A DNA stretch of 49,836 bases from an uncultured bacterium (GTDB taxonomy: Bacteria > Verrucomicrobiota > Kiritimatiellia > RFP12 > UBA1067), in NCBI GenBank assembly GCA_902761035.1, contig CACWIW010000009.1, positions 1 through 49,836 of the forward strand, written 5' to 3'. The notes beneath the pieces were generated by a model. The model searched no databases, was not told the DNA's origin, and saw nothing but the letters and a program-made list of their open reading frames with translations. Positions 53 through 8,861 of this stretch are shown piece by piece; position 1 is the stretch's first letter; every line of letters begins with the position of its first letter. The position numbers were made by a program, and so were the translations under genes.

Positions 53-1186
53 TCACGCGGCGTTCAGGTTACCAGCGTTTCGGATTCCACCCAAGACCCT
101 CAATCCTGTCAAAAAGAAATCCTCAACAATACTCTTGTGCCAAACGCAGACCATCGGACTGTTATCGATCTTCCGCTTCCCGAATTTCGACACAGAGAAT
201 CCCGCACCCGGATCGTTGATGTCCACACGCGGATCGATGAACCTCACCTCTCCCGTTGTTGCGTCGATGAAGGTATTGCGCCCCGGCTTGAAGTCGTAGA
301 CCATGTACTGGTCATTATAGGCGATCTTGCGCGCCGACGGAGCGAAGTCCACGCTGGAATCGTCGCTCTCGGTTGTATCGATATCATCCGCACTTTGTCG
401 GTCCCATGCCTCATCGTAAATCTTGAAACGCCGATTCGCCTTGTTCAGCGCCTCAACTATCTGCCCCTCGCTCGGCGCGATGATGTGCCCTTCCGCATCT
501 GTCTTCGGCGTCACAAGCGGCTGTTCGAGAATCAGATAGAACTGATCATACCCGTTGTTGTCCCATACGGCGATATCACGAAGGATGTATGCGTCCTTCG
601 GGAAAAGATAGTTGTGATAGACGAACTTGGCCAGTTCGGACTTGACGCCATCCAGACTATATGCGGAAAGCTTGCGGACCTTGATTACCGTATGACCGCT
701 TGTAGCATACACAAAGCTCTCTGCCCCTCGGTCGAAGAACCGATGACCAGTGCCTATTGTTTCCTTGGGGTCACACCCATAGCGCGTTGCCATTCGCCGG
801 AGGCATCCCAACCAGCCGCTTCCCTGCGGATCATGTTCGCGCGAAACTCCATGGATGCTTTCGCCTCCTCCGAAGTATACTTCGGGGGATTCCAGCGATA
901 GGATGTAGTTCCATAGTCTTTCATGTACAACTTCTCCTGAGGCGGCGGCTTCTTCCTTGGTGAAGCGCGGATGCTTCAGCTCGCCGGTCCCCAGCCCGCG
1001 CATCACCGCAGTCAGCCGTTTTTGGTCCACGGCAAAGAGTTTACCATTATCCTTCCCCGCCGTCAACTCTCCGGCCGCAACCACCGCGAGTAAGAGCGCA
1101 TCCGCGAATCGTGCTGGAGGTACGAAACGTCCGCTCAAATGGTAGGGTCGCCTCGCCGAGGCGACCGTGACGCAAATGATTGGCAA
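53..1186 (-). CDS. Kinase-like polyvalent-protein domain protein
   Basis: The 377 residues include a stretch with an HTVIKVRK lysine segment, NYLFPKDAY, FYLILEQPL, a Y(M)VYDFKPGRNTF segment and FIDPRVDI. This order resembles the 'putative polyvalent protein kinase' domain found in proteins of phages and mobile elements, where the FIDP aspartate would take the DFG-like role. That assignment is from memory of the family; no activity is established. The translated start is a TTG inside an inserted repeat (1094-1265), so the first ~30 residues are repeat-derived. Before insertion, an ATG at the right-hand junction would have read straight into MLLAVVAAGELTAG, which looks like the ancestral start. 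The gene may therefore be mis-started or weakly expressed. Its neighbour is the Ro60 gene, transcribed in the same direction from the right. Confidence 0.55.
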   Translation of the reverse strand: MPIICVTVASARRPYHLSGRFVPPARFADALLLAVVAAGELTAGKDNGKLFAVDQKRLTAVMRGLGTGELKHPRFTKEEAAASGEVVHERLWNYILSLESPEVYFGGGESIHGVSREHDPQGSGWLGCLRRMATRYGCDPKETIGTGHRFFDRGAESFVYATSGHTVIKVRKLSAYSLDGVKSELAKFVYHNYLFPKDAYILRDIAVWDNNGYDQFYLILEQPLVTPKTDAEGHIIAPSEGQIVEALNKANRRFKIYDEAWDRQSADDIDTTESDDSSVDFAPSARKIAYNDQYMVYDFKPGRNTFIDATTGEVRFIDPRVDINDPGAGFSVSKFGKRKIDNSPMVCVWHKSIVEDFFLTGLRVLGGIRNAGNLNAA

Positions 1187-1384: not shown

Positions 1385-2920
1385 TTATGCGACTGCACTC
1401 TTCCGCTTCTCCAGCACGAACTTCATGTAGTCGATCACGGAGTCGTTCCAGCCGAAGATCTGGTACACGTTCAGCCTCTTCGCCTCGGCCTCGGGGATGG
1501 GAGAGGTCATGTAGCTGTCGCCACGCAGGACAAACGCAACCGCCTTCGGATGGCGCTTGTGGTAGTTCTTCCATGCCTTCAACCAGCCGGAGCCGTACTC
1601 CTCCGTGTCCGTGAGGAACACGGCGTAGTCCGTGTCGATGCCCTTCTTGAGCATGTAATTCACGGCCGTCTCCATATACGTGCCGCCATAGACCATGTCC
1701 GTAATCGCCTTGATGTGCGTCATCACCGAATCGGCGCGCGGCACGAGGTAGGGTTTCACCTCTTCGTCCCACGGCAGAACCGTCACGTTTTCAAGCCCCT
1801 TCACGAAGAAGCCCACGAACATCGCGCTCACCGTCGCGTAGGTGAGGACGGAGGACCCGCCGATGCGCGAAGACATGGAACCAGACACATCCGGCGCGAT
1901 GATCCACCGCTTGCCCGCGAACGCGCTCCAGTCGTAGGACTGCGCGTACTCGTTCATCACCTCGGCGAGGTGGTCGAGCGCCCACTTGCCCTCTGCCGAC
2001 ACCTCCTGCGCCACGGCCAGATACGCCGTGTAGAGACGGAACGGGAACACCTTCGCCTTCTTGAGCGCCTCCACGTTCACCTTCGCCTTCAAGAGCTCGG
2101 GCGTCAGCACGCCCTCGCGCAGGAACTTCGCAAGGTACTTCACGAAGCGCATCACGGGCGAGCGCTTCGCAACGGCCGCCCAAAGCGCCTTGTCGAACTT
2201 GCCGTAGTAGGCCGTGAGCGAGTTAACATCCAGATTGTGCGCATCGAGGATCCGCGCCGCTGACGCGAGGTCGCCCGCCTCCACCGCGGACACGAAGTCG
2301 CGGTGTGCGGCGAGGTCGGGATACTCCGCATACGCCTTCTCCAGCTTCTCCGCGGAGTTGCCCTTTACGTCCGAATAGGCGTTGAGGATGTAGGCGTAGA
2401 TCGAATCCTCGCCCTTGAAGCGGGAGAGACGGATCGCGTCCGCAATCTGCTTGCGGTACTTCTGCGCGTAGTAGGGGTTCGTGTTGGACGCGATCCAGTC
2501 CGCGATGGCGGTCTTGAGGGAACGGCCGAAGCCGCGTACCGTCTTCGCGACCTCGATGAAGTCCACGAGGTCGTTGCCGGTGAGGATCACCTTCTTGAAG
2601 GCGTCCTGGAAGAGATGCGCGTTCTTCTTGGAGAGATAGACGAGTCCCAGGATCGGGAACACACGGATGAAACCCTCGCTGCGTCCGCGAACGATCGCGG
2701 CGGCGAGCGCCTGCGCGTCCGCCCGCTCGAGGAGCGCAACGGCCTCCTTCGCGGCCTCCTTCGCGTTCGCGTAGAAGGAATTGCCAAGCGTGCCAGTCAT
2801 CGCCAGCTGCTCCAGGAGCGCGGCGTCCGACGGCGTCCAGGCTGCGAAGCCCTCCGCGTTGGTCGTGTCTGCGGTGGCGTACATCGCCACCGTCTTCAGG
2901 TTCTCTTTCAGCGTCTTCAT
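1385..2920 (-). CDS. rsr: Ro60/Rsr family protein (TROVE and vWA domains)
   Basis: About 511 residues. The N-terminal two thirds is alpha-helical and fits the HEAT-like TROVE ring that binds misfolded and Y RNAs. The C-terminal third is a von Willebrand A domain with an intact MIDAS start (IIAPDVSGSMSS), then YGGTYMETA and a FLTDTEE strand. Bacterial Ro proteins bind Y RNAs and, in Deinococcus, Salmonella and mycobacteria, work with PNPase or RNA repair. The start MKTLKENL is chosen because GGAG lies 8 nt upstream; the reading frame is open further upstream but that stretch lacks such a site. Two structured RNA candidates lie within 250 nt upstream on the same strand. No rtcB, rtcA or pnp is next to it. 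Confidence 0.9.
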   Translation of the reverse strand: MKTLKENLKTVAMYATADTTNAEGFAAWTPSDAALLEQLAMTGTLGNSFYANAKEAAKEAVALLERADAQALAAAIVRGRSEGFIRVFPILGLVYLSKKNAHLFQDAFKKVILTGNDLVDFIEVAKTVRGFGRSLKTAIADWIASNTNPYYAQKYRKQIADAIRLSRFKGEDSIYAYILNAYSDVKGNSAEKLEKAYAEYPDLAAHRDFVSAVEAGDLASAARILDAHNLDVNSLTAYYGKFDKALWAAVAKRSPVMRFVKYLAKFLREGVLTPELLKAKVNVEALKKAKVFPFRLYTAYLAVAQEVSAEGKWALDHLAEVMNEYAQSYDWSAFAGKRWIIAPDVSGSMSSRIGGSSVLTYATVSAMFVGFFVKGLENVTVLPWDEEVKPYLVPRADSVMTHIKAITDMVYGGTYMETAVNYMLKKGIDTDYAVFLTDTEEYGSGWLKAWKNYHKRHPKAVAFVLRGDSYMTSPIPEAEAKRLNVYQIFGWNDSVIDYMKFVLEKRKSAVA

Positions 2921-2991
2921 TTGTTGTTCTCCATTTCTCTTCAAGAAGCCGATCATTCCTTCGCGGATTGCGTGATGAGGAATAAAGGGTG

Positions 2992-3061
2992 GGCTGGAAA
3001 CTACCATGTTGGAAACATGGTACGGGAATCGAACCCGTCATAACCAATGTTGAAACCAGCC
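2992..3061 (-). ncRNA. Candidate Y RNA with a tRNA T-arm mimic
   Basis: Read on the minus strand, this 70-nt stretch is closed by GGCTGG (3061-3056) pairing with CCAGCC (2997-2992). Inside is ACGGGTTCGATTCCCGT (3038-3022), a canonical 5-bp T-stem with a 7-nt TTCGATT loop. A stem AACAT(T)GGT/ACCATGTT with one bulge joins the two. An alternative hairpin ACCATGTT-TCC-AACATGGT is possible. There is no D-arm, anticodon arm or CCA-bearing acceptor, so it is not a tRNA. A tRNA-like module opposite a closing stem is the known layout of bacterial Y RNAs, and it lies 72 nt upstream of the Ro60 start. The 5' GGCTGGTTTCA also resembles the Ro-binding strand of vertebrate Y RNAs. Confidence 0.65.
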
Positions 3062-3085
3062 GAACACCTCAAGACACAAAATGAA

Positions 3086-3165
3086 AGCGAGGAATGAAAC
3101 GCGTTGGCTATTGCGGTTTACGAAACCACTACATGAAAAGTTGAAACCAACACAAGCACCTCGCT
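3086..3165 (-). ncRNA. Second structured RNA candidate upstream of Ro60
   Basis: On the minus strand an 80-nt segment is closed by a perfect 7-bp stem AGCGAGG/CCTCGCT. It has an inner GTTGG/CCAAC pairing and a GTGGTTT-CGT-AAACCGC hairpin. Its 5' part, GAGGTGCTT..TTGGTTTCAAC, parallels the 5' flank of the neighbouring candidate (GAGGTGTTC..CTGGTTTCAAC). This suggests a diverged tandem duplicate or a second Y-type RNA. It has no clear T-loop. Confidence 0.45.
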
Positions 3166-3500
3166 GAAATCTCGCAAAGGAACAATCGACTTGTCAAAGA
3201 TCGTGCCCCCTATCGGCGGCGCAGTCACTTTAGCACAACCCGTGCCAACACAGCTCGCCTGAAGACTTTGAACGTCAGGTCCAAGACGCAGACTGGACGA
3301 AAGCAACTCATTTCATACCAAAATCCTAACTTTTCACGAGCTCACGCCAAATCCAATCAGACTCAAAATCATTCCGCACCATAATCGCATTTCACCTCTC
3401 ACATGTCCACCCACGCCCCATCCTATCCAAAAAGATAGAATCTATCCGAAAGTATTAATTCGAAAATGCCGCCACACGGGGCACAGGTGTGACAAGGCCA
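3166..3500. other. Non-coding stretch upstream of the RNA candidates
   Basis: No convincing gene is visible. On the minus strand there is an extended -10-like TTTTGGTATGAA near 3307-3318 that could start a transcript through both RNA candidates. A TTTGACAAGTC segment near 3188-3198 is faintly like the 3' strand of animal Y RNAs, but this is weak. A near-palindrome around 3434-3446 (GATAGATTCTATC) is the only other structure seen. Confidence 0.3.
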
Positions 3501-4829: not shown

Positions 4830-7800
4830 CTACCTGATGACTGTGAACGAATAAGCACCCGAGCCGATTCTGCGATCGGGCTGACCGGGAAGGCGCACAA
4901 TGGCCGTTGTGTTCGGCGGCACCGTTACGTCAAGCGTCACCTTCTTCCCGTCGCGCCGCCACGCGGTGGTGATCGGTCCGTTGGGTCCGTTCACGGACGC
5001 CTTCGCCCACGTGAGCGCGTCGATGAACTGCGGCGCGATCACGACTTCGCGCAGCGCCGTCGCAGAAACATCGGGAATTGCCGCACTGCTGCCATCTTTT
5101 TCAGGTAGCTGGATGCCGCCGAGGTACTGGTACGCCCACGCCATGAAGTCGCCGAACATGATGTGGTTGCGGCTCGCACCGTCACCCCAGTCCTCCCACA
5201 ACGTCGTGCCGCCCTTCTGAATCCACTCGACGGGCGAGGGTTTCGTGGGATTCGTGAGCATCTTGAACGCGAGGTCGGTGCGACCGATACGGCTCAACGC
5301 ACGGAAAACGTGTTTGGAACCGAGGAGGCCAATGTCCACATGACATCCCTCCTTCTCCACTGATTCTACGAGTTTCGCCGCCACGGCCGCACGCTCGCTC
5401 TCCGGCACCACGCCGAACGCGAGCGGAAATGCCTGCGCCGTCTGGCGGGCGTTGTCATAGACGCCGTTGCCCTTGTAGAACTTCGCGTGGATTGCCGTCT
5501 TGATGGCATCGGCGAGCTTTGCGTAACGCGCCGCATCGTCGGCAAGACCCTTGATCGCGGCGATGCGCGAGAGAATCGCCGCCGCCTGTCGGTAGTAACA
5601 GCTGGAGGTGAGTTCTGTCGACGGCACATGCTTGCGGTTCACGTGGTTCCAGTCGCCGATACCATGCCGCACGAGGTTCCCCCGCGCCTTCGTCGATGTG
5701 AAATCGACGTAGCGCTTAAGCGCGGGATACACGACGTCCAGTATGCGGCGGTCGCCGCGATAGCACCAGAGGTTCCACGTGACCACGGGCATCGCGCTGT
5801 CCCACGCAGGACCGTTGCCCCAGCGGTAGCCCCAGCCGCTCGTGGGGACGATGCCGCAGATGTCGCCGCTCCCGAGCTGCGAGTCCATAATGTCACGCAG
5901 CCACTTCTCGTAGGCAGCCGTGTTCTCAAAGCAGTACTGCGCAAGCTCGGAGGCGATCGAGGCGTCGCCCGTCCAACCGTTCTTCTCGCGGTGCGGACAA
6001 TCCGTCGGATAGCCATCCGCGAAGTTGGAGCTGTACGCGCGGTCGCCCATCAGCATGAGCGTGTTGAACGTCTCGTCGGAGCAGGAGAACGAGCCGATCG
6101 ACGGGAAGTCGGTGTGTACCACGCAGCCCGTGATGTCCGCCGCACGCGGCGCGGTGCGCAGTCCCTTGAGGGTGACATACTGGAAGCCGTTGTACGTGAA
6201 GCGCGGCTCGTACCTTTCAACCGCCGCGCCGGAGGAGACGAAACGGTCGGTCTGGAACTCCGCGCCCGTGGCGCAGACGGCCTGCGAGGCCGTGTAGCGG
6301 AAATGGCAGTCGATGCGCCGCGTCGCTTTCCCGACATCCGGGCCGTGGAGGCTGCCCTTGAAGTTGTGGATGCCGTCAGGGGCGGACGTCCGCGCCGGCG
6401 AGAAGTCCTTGTTCGCGCGCTCGTCGTAGCGGATCACGAGCACGTCGCCCTTCTTCTGTCCGCGCACGTCCATCCGAATCCACCCCGCGAAGTTCTCGGG
6501 AAACTCCACCACGTACGTGCCGTCGGGAAACGCGTGAATCGCCTTCGGCGTAATCGTGCGCATCACCTTCGCGCCCGGACAGTTCTCCGCCACAAGCGCG
6601 CCCTTCGGCGCGGACACCTCGACCGCGCGTATCTCGCGCTTCGCGAAGTCGGGCTGCGCGGGATGGTGCGCGCCGATCACCTCGCCCTCGCGGATGCAGT
6701 CGTAGCCGACGGGACTTTCCACCTGACGCCACGAGCCGTCCGAGACGACCGTTTCGCGCGTACCGTCCGCATACGTGATTTCAAGTTGCGCGATCATGCG
6801 CGGGAAATTGCGCCACGGCGCGACGTCGAAGTTCCACACCGCGATCGAGCGCACGTCGTACCAGCCGTGTCCCACCAGCACCTTCAACGTGTTCTCGCCC
6901 GCCTTCAGCGCGCCGCCGAGATCGTAGGTGGAGTAGAGAACGTGCTTGTCGTAGGCCGTGGGCGACGGGTCGAGCACCTTGTCGCCGATCTTGCGTCCGT
7001 TCAGCGACGCCTCGTAGAAGCCGACGCCCGTCACGTGGAGAAAAGCGGAGGCGACGGGCTTGGTAATGGCGATCTTCTTCTCGAAGGCGGGCGACGCGAT
7101 CTCCTCGCGCGTGACAAGCGCCTTGCCGTACGGCGTATCGCGCAGGGCACCGAGATCGTTGCCGAGCGTTCCGTTCGTCACGATGCGGCGGCCATCGGGG
7201 AAACGCAACGCGCAGATGAACGCCTGCGGGGTTCCCCTTCCGCCTTTCTTCACGCGGACGGTCATCGTGTTCTTGCCAGGTTTGAGCCACTGCGTCATGT
7301 CGCGGAAGCGCAGATGGTTCCAGCGGTCCACCTGTCCCGAATGGCGATGGAACTCCTTTCCGTTCACGTCAATCTCGTGCCGCGTTGAGGCAGCGTGCAG
7401 CAGTTCCACATACTCGCCGGGCTTCGCGCCGGCGAAGTCGAACTCAAGCGAAATCACCACGTCGCCGCGGGCGTTGGGTTTGGCGGTTATCCAGCGCGCA
7501 CCGGACAGGTCCGCTTCGGGACGCGTCTCAGGGGCGGGTCCGATCCACTTTGCTTTCCAACCGTCGCCAGGCATGATGCCCGTCACCCATGTCGCAGGAA
7601 CGCTCCAGTCACTTTCCGCACCCGAGCCGTCCCACGTGCGCACCTTCCACCAGTAACGGCGCGACGAGGCAAGCTTTTTTCCGCCATACTCCACGTCAAT
7701 CGTGTCCGCGCTCGAAACTTTACCTGTGTCCCATAAGTCGCCCTTGTCCGCCACGAGATTCTCCTTCGAGCTTGCCACCATGATGCGGTACGCACTCTGC

Positions 7801-8861
7801 ACAACGCCCTTTGCGTCTTTCTTCGATGCCAGTTTCCAGCCGAAACGTGGGGACGGCGCGTCCATGCCGCACGGATTCTCCAGCCTTTCCACAGTCAGCC
7901 CGCACGGAGCGCCAAACGCACCAGCGCGGAATCTCTCAACCAGCGCGTCCTTCTCCTGCCTGGGCACCGCGATGACCGTGCCGTGGCGGATGCCTTTCGG
8001 CAGATGGAGCTCCGCCGTGCGGTCTTTCCAGGTCTTGCCGCCGTCGGAGCTGGAAATCATGTTATAGCGTCCGCGACGGTAGTTGTCGAAGCAAACGAAC
8101 ATCTCCTTGCCGACGAGGAACGGTGACGGCCCTTCGACCCAGTCGGGTCCGAAGTTGATTGGCCCGTCAAGCTTTGTCGGGAAACCCTTGTCCAGCGACT
8201 TCGTGCGCGTGGTGAGGATGTGCTTCTTCGCGACGGGCTTCTCCCGCTCGTCCTTGATCGTCATCACCCAGTCGTGCGTGAGGGGATCGCGCACGATCGC
8301 TGCGTCAATCATGCTATAGCCCGGATCGAACCACTTCTCCGTCGGCGTGAACGTCTTGAAGTCGCGGGTCGTCGTGCGGTAGATGCGGTGTCCGTCGCCG
8401 CGTCCGGAAATCGTCGACGCCCAGTAGATGTGGTACGTGCCGGTGTCGGGGTCGTAGGTGAGCTCCGGTGCCCAGCAGTTCCGGCATTCCTTCTCGTGCT
8501 CCATCACCGGAATCGCGCGCTGCTCGCTCCAGGTGACGAAGTCGCGCGTCTCGGCGTAGCCGATGATGCGGTCGTGCCAGCTCGTGGTCCAGACCATGCG
8601 GTACACGCCGTCCGGGCCGCGGCAGATGGAGGGATCGCGCATGAGGCGGTCCTTGCCCACCGTGGGCTTCAGGACGCTCTTGTTGCCGTTGAGCGCGGTC
8701 CAGTTCAAGCCGTCGTCGCTCACGGCGAGGTGCAGTCCGTCGCTCTGTCCGCAGAAGTACGAGAAGATGTAGGCTTCCGTGGCGGGAGTCTCGGGCGCGG
8801 CCTGCGCGAGCGCCGCCACCGCCGCAAGTCCTACGGAAATAATAATTTTATGAATCTTCAT
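4830..8861 (-). CDS. Secreted GH43-like / GH78 alpha-L-rhamnosidase fusion
   Basis: 1343 residues with a signal peptide. Residues ~25-300 look like a GH43-type five-bladed propeller (MRDPSICRGPDG, CWAPELTYDP, WVEGPSPF). The rest follows GH78 order: an Fn3-like region (~315-440), a rhamnosidase N domain (~600-780), a concanavalin-like domain, then the catalytic (alpha/alpha)6 barrel. The barrel has DCPHREKNGWTGDA near 954-967, where the glutamate is the expected acid, and TTLWEDWGDG near 1217-1226, the expected base. GH78 enzymes release alpha-L-rhamnose from pectin or glycosides; a GH43 partner would remove arabinose or related sugars. The fusion suggests one secreted enzyme for branched rhamnogalacturonan. 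An AAGGA ribosome site and an extended -10 lie upstream. Confidence 0.88.
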   Translation of the reverse strand: MKIHKIIISVGLAAVAALAQAAPETPATEAYIFSYFCGQSDGLHLAVSDDGLNWTALNGNKSVLKPTVGKDRLMRDPSICRGPDGVYRMVWTTSWHDRIIGYAETRDFVTWSEQRAIPVMEHEKECRNCWAPELTYDPDTGTYHIYWASTISGRGDGHRIYRTTTRDFKTFTPTEKWFDPGYSMIDAAIVRDPLTHDWVMTIKDEREKPVAKKHILTTRTKSLDKGFPTKLDGPINFGPDWVEGPSPFLVGKEMFVCFDNYRRGRYNMISSSDGGKTWKDRTAELHLPKGIRHGTVIAVPRQEKDALVERFRAGAFGAPCGLTVERLENPCGMDAPSPRFGWKLASKKDAKGVVQSAYRIMVASSKENLVADKGDLWDTGKVSSADTIDVEYGGKKLASSRRYWWKVRTWDGSGAESDWSVPATWVTGIMPGDGWKAKWIGPAPETRPEADLSGARWITAKPNARGDVVISLEFDFAGAKPGEYVELLHAASTRHEIDVNGKEFHRHSGQVDRWNHLRFRDMTQWLKPGKNTMTVRVKKGGRGTPQAFICALRFPDGRRIVTNGTLGNDLGALRDTPYGKALVTREEIASPAFEKKIAITKPVASAFLHVTGVGFYEASLNGRKIGDKVLDPSPTAYDKHVLYSTYDLGGALKAGENTLKVLVGHGWYDVRSIAVWNFDVAPWRNFPRMIAQLEITYADGTRETVVSDGSWRQVESPVGYDCIREGEVIGAHHPAQPDFAKREIRAVEVSAPKGALVAENCPGAKVMRTITPKAIHAFPDGTYVVEFPENFAGWIRMDVRGQKKGDVLVIRYDERANKDFSPARTSAPDGIHNFKGSLHGPDVGKATRRIDCHFRYTASQAVCATGAEFQTDRFVSSGAAVERYEPRFTYNGFQYVTLKGLRTAPRAADITGCVVHTDFPSIGSFSCSDETFNTLMLMGDRAYSSNFADGYPTDCPHREKNGWTGDASIASELAQYCFENTAAYEKWLRDIMDSQLGSGDICGIVPTSGWGYRWGNGPAWDSAMPVVTWNLWCYRGDRRILDVVYPALKRYVDFTSTKARGNLVRHGIGDWNHVNRKHVPSTELTSSCYYRQAAAILSRIAAIKGLADDAARYAKLADAIKTAIHAKFYKGNGVYDNARQTAQAFPLAFGVVPESERAAVAAKLVESVEKEGCHVDIGLLGSKHVFRALSRIGRTDLAFKMLTNPTKPSPVEWIQKGGTTLWEDWGDGASRNHIMFGDFMAWAYQYLGGIQLPEKDGSSAAIPDVSATALREVVIAPQFIDALTWAKASVNGPNGPITTAWRRDGKKVTLDVTVPPNTTAIVRLPGQPDRRIGSGAYSFTVIR

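Follow-up and report, generated by a model that had tools for sequence, protein, structure and literature searches.

A 49,836-nucleotide (nt) stretch of DNA from an uncultured bacterium of the Kiritimatiellia (GenBank assembly GCA_902761035.1, contig CACWIW010000009.1, positions 1 to 49,836; hereafter the window) was analyzed around a Ro60 gene and two short RNAs encoded directly upstream of it. The Ro60/Rsr gene occupies positions 1385–2920 of the minus strand and encodes a protein of 511 residues with a TROVE ring, a vWA domain and the metal ion-dependent adhesion site motif DVSGSM at residues 344–349. Human Ro60 (9nen, E-value 6e-16) and Deinococcus radiodurans Rsr (2nvo, 2e-15) are near full-length phmmer matches, an hmmsearch against Ro60 structures gave an E-value of 4e-25, and the Pfam vWA_Ro60 model scores 40.7 bits. 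The curated Pfam TROVE model did not reach an E-value of 0.001, and the NCBIfam Rsr model matches with an E-value of 1e-16, yet far below its equivalog cut-off. An AlphaFold model of modest confidence (predicted local distance difference test score 68) gave 13 significant Foldseek matches, all to Ro60, Rsr or TROVE proteins (best E-value 7e-13), and the protein is thus predicted to have the Ro60 ring fold. It is a divergent Ro60/Rsr homolog with similarity across both domains. Copies with 83–97% identity occur in ruminant-gut Kiritimatiellae and close relatives, and six more distant copies (51–56% identity), from two other families, were recovered when 388 genomes of the phylum were searched with a profile; a search by family for further loci among relatives of these distant loci found none.

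Two RNA units precede the gene on the same strand. Unit 2, the nearer one (2975–3072, minus strand; 98 nt, type B), consists of an outer stem (UGAGG/CCUCA), the dinucleotide UG, an inner stem (GGCUGG/CCAGCC), the motif UUUCAAC, a T-arm followed by a closed acceptor mimic, and AUU. The inner stem of 6 base pairs (bp) ends 72 nt upstream of the Ro60 ATG. The T-arm mimic ACGGGTTCGATTCCCGT (ACGGG-TTCGATT-CCCGT) spans 3022–3038 and is followed immediately 3' by a closed, 7-bp acceptor-like hairpin (ACCAUGU-UUCCA-ACAUGGU, 3003–3021), both on the minus strand. Unit 1, the farther one (3087–3164, minus strand; 78 nt, type A), comprises an outer stem (GCGAGG/CCUCGC, 7 bp if a flanking A-T pair is counted), UG, an inner stem (UGUUGG/CCAACG), UUUCAAC, an anticodon-arm mimic and AUU. 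The mimic (GUGGU-UUCGUAA-ACCGC; 3113–3129, minus strand) has U33, A37 and A38, and its 'anticodon' is CGU. Both RNAs fold more stably than shuffled sequences (z-scores −2.9 and −4.4), and the window contains exactly two copies of the motif they share, GAGGTG-N3..12-TGGTTTCAAC, whereas 100 shuffles contained none. ARAGORN found no tRNA in the window, Rfam returned no match, tRNA included, for either RNA, and neither program recognized the full cloverleaf of a tRNA gene in the units.

A sigma54-type −24/−12 promoter, TTGGCACGGGTTGTGCTAA, is predicted ahead of the two units (3230–3248, minus strand) with one mismatch to the consensus; at up to two mismatches, 0.1 occurrences would be expected across the whole window, and the genome contains a sigma54 gene. 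About 200 nt farther upstream lies a possible enhancer-binding site, or upstream activating sequence (UAS), GGATAG-ATT-CTATC...GGATAG (3423–3447, minus strand). The candidate UAS was found in four related array-1 promoters (L012, L013, L015 and L017), and ATAG-N3-CTAT also occurs about 57 nt upstream of the rtcR start in three relatives; we tentatively regard it as a candidate activator site that is not universal. A preliminary description of the locus, made from its letters alone, had named a minus-strand Ro60 gene, two compact upstream RNAs closed by perfect 6- and 7-bp stems and a canonical T-arm in the nearer RNA, all of which are present. It had also described that T-arm as lacking the other arms of a tRNA, which is correct for the D-arm and misses the acceptor-like hairpin. 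The outer stem of the nearer RNA, the anticodon-type hairpin of the farther one, the promoter, the sigma54/RtcR RNA-repair operon context and a second array (see below) had likewise been overlooked.

The two units share a module with the order hexamer, UG, spacer, inner stem, UUUCAAC (or GUUCAAC), effector, complementary strand of the inner stem, spacer, AUU and hexamer complement. We found 41 distinct copies, both in ruminant Kiritimatiellae and in genomes farther away within the phylum; they form tandem arrays with one to five members and are always placed beside Ro60/RNA-repair operons. A motif search of 115 genomes of the family returned 28 units in 10 of them, and the reversed pattern returned none. 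Because the 3' arms of the modules were found by pairing, a control with letter-shuffled hexamers is important; it predicts 0.6 units with a full 6-bp outer stem beside AUU, compared to the 24 of 41 observed. Standard pairs make up 97.9% of those counted across 28 modules (69.4% after shuffling), covariation reaches a score of 0.82 (0.23 after shuffling), both-sided changes occur at all 12 pairs of the two module stems, and shifting the register wipes out the pairing signal. The outer stem, for example, appears as GCGAGG/CCUCGC, CCGGAG/CUCCGG, UCGGGU/ACCCGA, CGAGGG/CCCUCG and UAGAGG/CCUCUA. Unit 2 itself is conserved in six relatives, and its seven orthologs carry compensatory changes in the inner stem, the T-arm and the acceptor hairpin. 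The stem covariation is strong evidence that the module represents a conserved RNA structure, and a chance hairpin was ruled out by the covariation and the recurrence of the module. The preliminary description had proposed compensatory changes as a check and had read the pair as duplicated, diverged RNAs of the Y RNA plan, in which a stem on the Ro side is joined to an end that mimics tRNA; both points are borne out, and the module stems covary strongly.

With a conserved stem, a variable tip and a coding position beside Ro60, the units fall within the broad definition of bacterial Y RNAs. By position and by analogy to Y RNAs, the module stem would be the Ro60-binding stem. All of these Ro60 copies have a common upstream anatomy, in which a −24/−12 type promoter is followed by one to five RNA units and then Ro60, and such a promoter lies ahead of almost all arrays for which upstream DNA is available (at L233 the contig is cut, so that the array promoter is not visible). 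Viral contig L279 contains two units of the same plan (2790–2975) directly upstream of its own Ro60 gene, whose product shows 43% identity. The IMG/VR matches to the motif, among those listed, were scattered over unrelated contigs and were judged to be chance.

Comparison with the tRNAs of the same genome identifies the tip of unit 1, at the level of sequence, as a copy of an anticodon arm, and this mimicry is the most unusual feature of the locus. The arm matches that of host tRNA-Thr(UGU) at 15 of 17 positions, which none of 100 shuffles reached, and its loop is identical to that of host tRNA-Thr(CGU). The T-arm of unit 2 matches the T-arm of host tRNA-Gly(UCC) at 14 of 17 positions, and loop positions 1–6 are invariant across the seven orthologs. 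Its T-arm and closed acceptor stem follow the circularly permuted tRNA order of the YrlA consensus, with the D-arm absent. Other arrays contain Phe-like loops (GCGGA-GUGAAAA-UCCGC and GUGGU-CUGAAAA-ACCGC), a Cys loop (AUGA-CUGCAAA-UCAU), and a tip, GCAGA-CUCCUAA-UCUGC, that combines the stem of Leu(CAA) with a loop near that of Arg(CCU). These tips could instead be ordinary hairpins that resemble tRNA arms by chance, or functionless leftovers of captured tRNA fragments, with the Ro60-binding stem alone being important; in favor of this explanation, unit 1 lacks a clear D- or T-arm, and the tips of many units elsewhere are unrelated. It is nevertheless improbable, since anticodon-type loops are found in seven of 27 unit families compared to 0.96 in shuffles (none of 1000 shuffles reached seven), and the tips of four unit families agree with host anticodon arms at 14–15 of 17 positions (0 of 100 shuffles each) with different anticodons and with differing stems that still pair. 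The tRNA mimicry by the tips is likely to be functional.

The arrays are embedded in operons of the RNA-repair type. At L236 and L237, a divergent rtcR gene is followed by a sigma54 promoter, the array, Ro60 and rtcB, with RtcR and RtcB both confirmed by Pfam. The order at L232 is array, Ro60, rtcA and rtcB with a divergent RtcR-like N-terminus, and at L234 a Zeta-toxin-like kinase, an AAA_33 kinase and Thg1 follow RtcB. The genus of the window has a longer arrangement of array 1, Ro60, Kinase-PolyVal, array 2, a 71-residue protein, HD_4, cpYpsA, AAA_33 and Thg1 (at L013, cpYpsA directly follows the 71-residue protein), and rtcR is located away from Ro60. L011, L013 and L018 all keep the Kinase-PolyVal gene (53–1186, minus strand, in the window; Pfam PF18762, E-values 6e-9 to 2e-10) at this place, with Ro60 on one side and array 2 on the other. 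In the genome of the window, array 2 lies on a separate contig (G000:C150), which homology places beside the end of the window. RtcR is present in all six of the other genomes examined with window-type Ro60, and one of them has the same promoter sequence facing rtcR. Seven of the proteins had no match among the known defense models of PADLOC.

The operon setting also gives rise to the main alternative, in which the units are cis-acting elements in the leaders of the mRNAs for Ro60 and the repair operon, where Ro60 would bind and control translation, processing or stability by feedback, and never act as free Y RNAs. Every array does sit between the promoter and the first gene, in both operons of the regulon. 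A simple leader, however, needs neither highly variable tips nor tips that copy tRNA arms, as several do here, and the Salmonella yrlBA RNAs also lie inside their operon and yet are regarded as Y RNAs (PMC4987338). We consider the leader explanation unlikely, and the units very probably are Y-type RNAs of an RtcR-type RNA-repair regulon.

Other elements were found beside the Ro60 operons. At L014 (G068, 5844–7087), a type II-like Cas1 (TIGR03639) and Cas2 directly follow Ro60 and a 37-nt repeat occurs twice nearby, such that an adaptation locus of the clustered regularly interspaced short palindromic repeat (CRISPR) type abuts the operon. This Cas1-Cas2 pair, together with the GTTTCAAC motif, had raised the question of whether the units are CRISPR repeats, which was ruled out because the 37-nt repeat of L014 is a distinct element of that locus and because the units are unequal in length with covarying stems. 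A tRNA-Leu(CAA)-like gene (L232, 5936–6010, minus strand) is located inside an array operon just upstream of Ro60, and a tRNA-Ile(UAU) gene (L234, 5353–5428, minus strand) lies about 18 nt downstream of Ro60 in another; both may encode replacement tRNAs.

A further explanation holds that the units are canonical YrlA RNAs that fall just below the Rfam threshold. The overall plan is alike, and the T-arm and closed acceptor stem of unit 2 follow the YrlA order, but the stem consensus of the module (UUUCAAC/AUU) differs from that of YrlA (CUAC/ACUUG) and the D-arm is missing. Searched against 801 nt of the window, the Rfam YrlA model (RF02553) gave no match up to an E-value of 5, and it gave none up to 10 in the relatives, although at classical TROVE loci within the phylum it scores 70–79 bits, above the gathering score. 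This explanation is already largely refuted and very improbable. The fragment of a decayed tRNA gene, which the preliminary description had named as an alternative and which the presence of a perfect T-arm but no complete tRNA might suggest, is excluded with near certainty by the conserved loop and compensated stem of that T-arm in seven orthologs and by the presence of the module at no fewer than 13 loci. Matches to YrlA-type models, by which the preliminary description had proposed to check these RNAs, are thus lacking, and its suggestion of a new Ro60–Y RNA pair in this group of bacteria stands for the duplicated, diverged RNAs but not for the pairing as such, because classical Ro60 with canonical YrlA already occurs in the phylum. 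As far as our tools and the open literature reach, the new elements are the YrlA-independent module, its tandem arrays, the second repair operon with the same type of array, and the anticodon-arm mimics. The Rfam YrlA model also cross-matches pairs of adjacent tRNA genes at 30–43 bits, which is a trap in YrlA surveys; the full-length, sub-threshold matches in L041, L042, L043, L044 and L046 are such tandem pairs and were rejected.

Taken together, we favor with reasonable confidence the reading that the locus is an inducible Ro60 ribonucleoprotein (RNP) module of the RtcR RNA-repair type, with modular Y RNAs that mimic parts of tRNAs. We infer Ro60 binding by the units, induction through tRNA damage, and a function in recruitment or as decoys. 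In the proposed mechanism, tRNA damage would activate an RtcR-type sigma54 activator that turns on the array promoter, and the array transcript would carry Y RNAs that each have a common stem gripped by Ro60 (two helices with UG/AUU between them, followed by UUUCAAC) and a private tip copying a part of a tRNA, on which proteins that normally handle that part could dock. The T-arm/acceptor tip of unit 2 might recruit enzymes that bind the elbow or the acceptor end of tRNA, comparable to the recruitment of PNPase in D. radiodurans, where YrlA tethers PNPase to Rsr (PMC8394870), while enzymes that act on the anticodon loop, for example anticodon nucleases or repair enzymes, might bind the anticodon-arm tip of unit 1 and in this way be tethered or decoyed. 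That the anticodon-arm copies are nuclease baits or repair-enzyme docks, and that Ro60 and its Y RNAs form a modular decoy and sensor of tRNA damage in the RtcR regulon, is a more speculative possibility.

Several observations weigh against this reading. RtcB was not found in the metagenome-assembled genome of the window (89.8% complete), which has only a divergent RtcR-domain activator and no canonical RtcR; these gaps may result from incompleteness. The candidate UAS is absent from the distant loci. Most effectors in distant relatives are unlike tRNA arms, so that the mimicry is not universal and the tips are diverse. Finally, no cloverleaf is claimed for type A units, in which UA-GCUU-AGAG-AAGC can be paired by eye before the arm, since the predicted minimum-energy fold prefers other pairing.

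Two other gene clusters, G000:C40:47303–47671 (L031) and G013:C7 (L037), encode a sigma54 activator whose RtcR-CARF domain is divergent, beside a ResIII/DEAD helicase gene and unknown genes, and may represent RtcR-linked, CoCoNuTs-like defense. The window also encodes a large fusion protein (4830–8861, minus strand) with arabinofuranosidase-like and alpha-L-rhamnosidase-like parts, which fits a rumen polysaccharide degrader.

Among known systems, YrlA resembles the units in its two-part Ro-side stem with an internal loop and in its linkage to Ro60/Rsr, and resembles unit 2 in a tRNA-mimicking tip in which the T-arm precedes a closed acceptor stem. The units differ from YrlA in their stem letters (UG...UUUCAAC...AUU), in the missing D-arm of unit 2 and in their tandem arrays of one to five diverse members. 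YrlA is described as mimicking the D, T and acceptor arms (PMC8394870), whereas type A units copy anticodon arms; what YrlA lacks is judged here from the Rfam model and from reviews describing that mimicry. The module may be a second, YrlA-independent answer to the problem of a Ro60-binding RNA, with many natural variants for structural work, and it can serve as a search motif for Y RNAs missed by Rfam. The rsr-yrlBA-rtcBA operon of Salmonella, where YrlA is likewise linked to rtcBA under RtcR, shares with the loci of the relatives a sigma54 promoter, a divergent rtcR, Ro60, Y RNAs and RtcA/RtcB (PMC7790460); here, however, the Y RNAs are upstream of Ro60, a second array accompanies HD, cpYpsA, kinase and Thg1 genes, and rtcR is apart from Ro60 in the genus of the window. 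Salmonella RtcR is switched on by binding 5' tRNA fragments that carry a cyclic phosphate at the end, and then drives this operon, and YrlA was suggested by the authors to be a competitive inhibitor of an anticodon nuclease (PMC7790460), a suggestion that Y RNAs with anticodon arms of several anticodons on a fixed Ro60-binding module would make directly testable. Metazoan Ro60–Y RNA RNPs have the same Ro60 fold and short RNAs with a conserved stem and a variable loop, but the variable part of the units described here mimics parts of tRNAs. Ro60 homologs are also found in phages, as in Thermus phage phiLo (9l5y) and viral contig L279, whose unit tips differ from those of the window.
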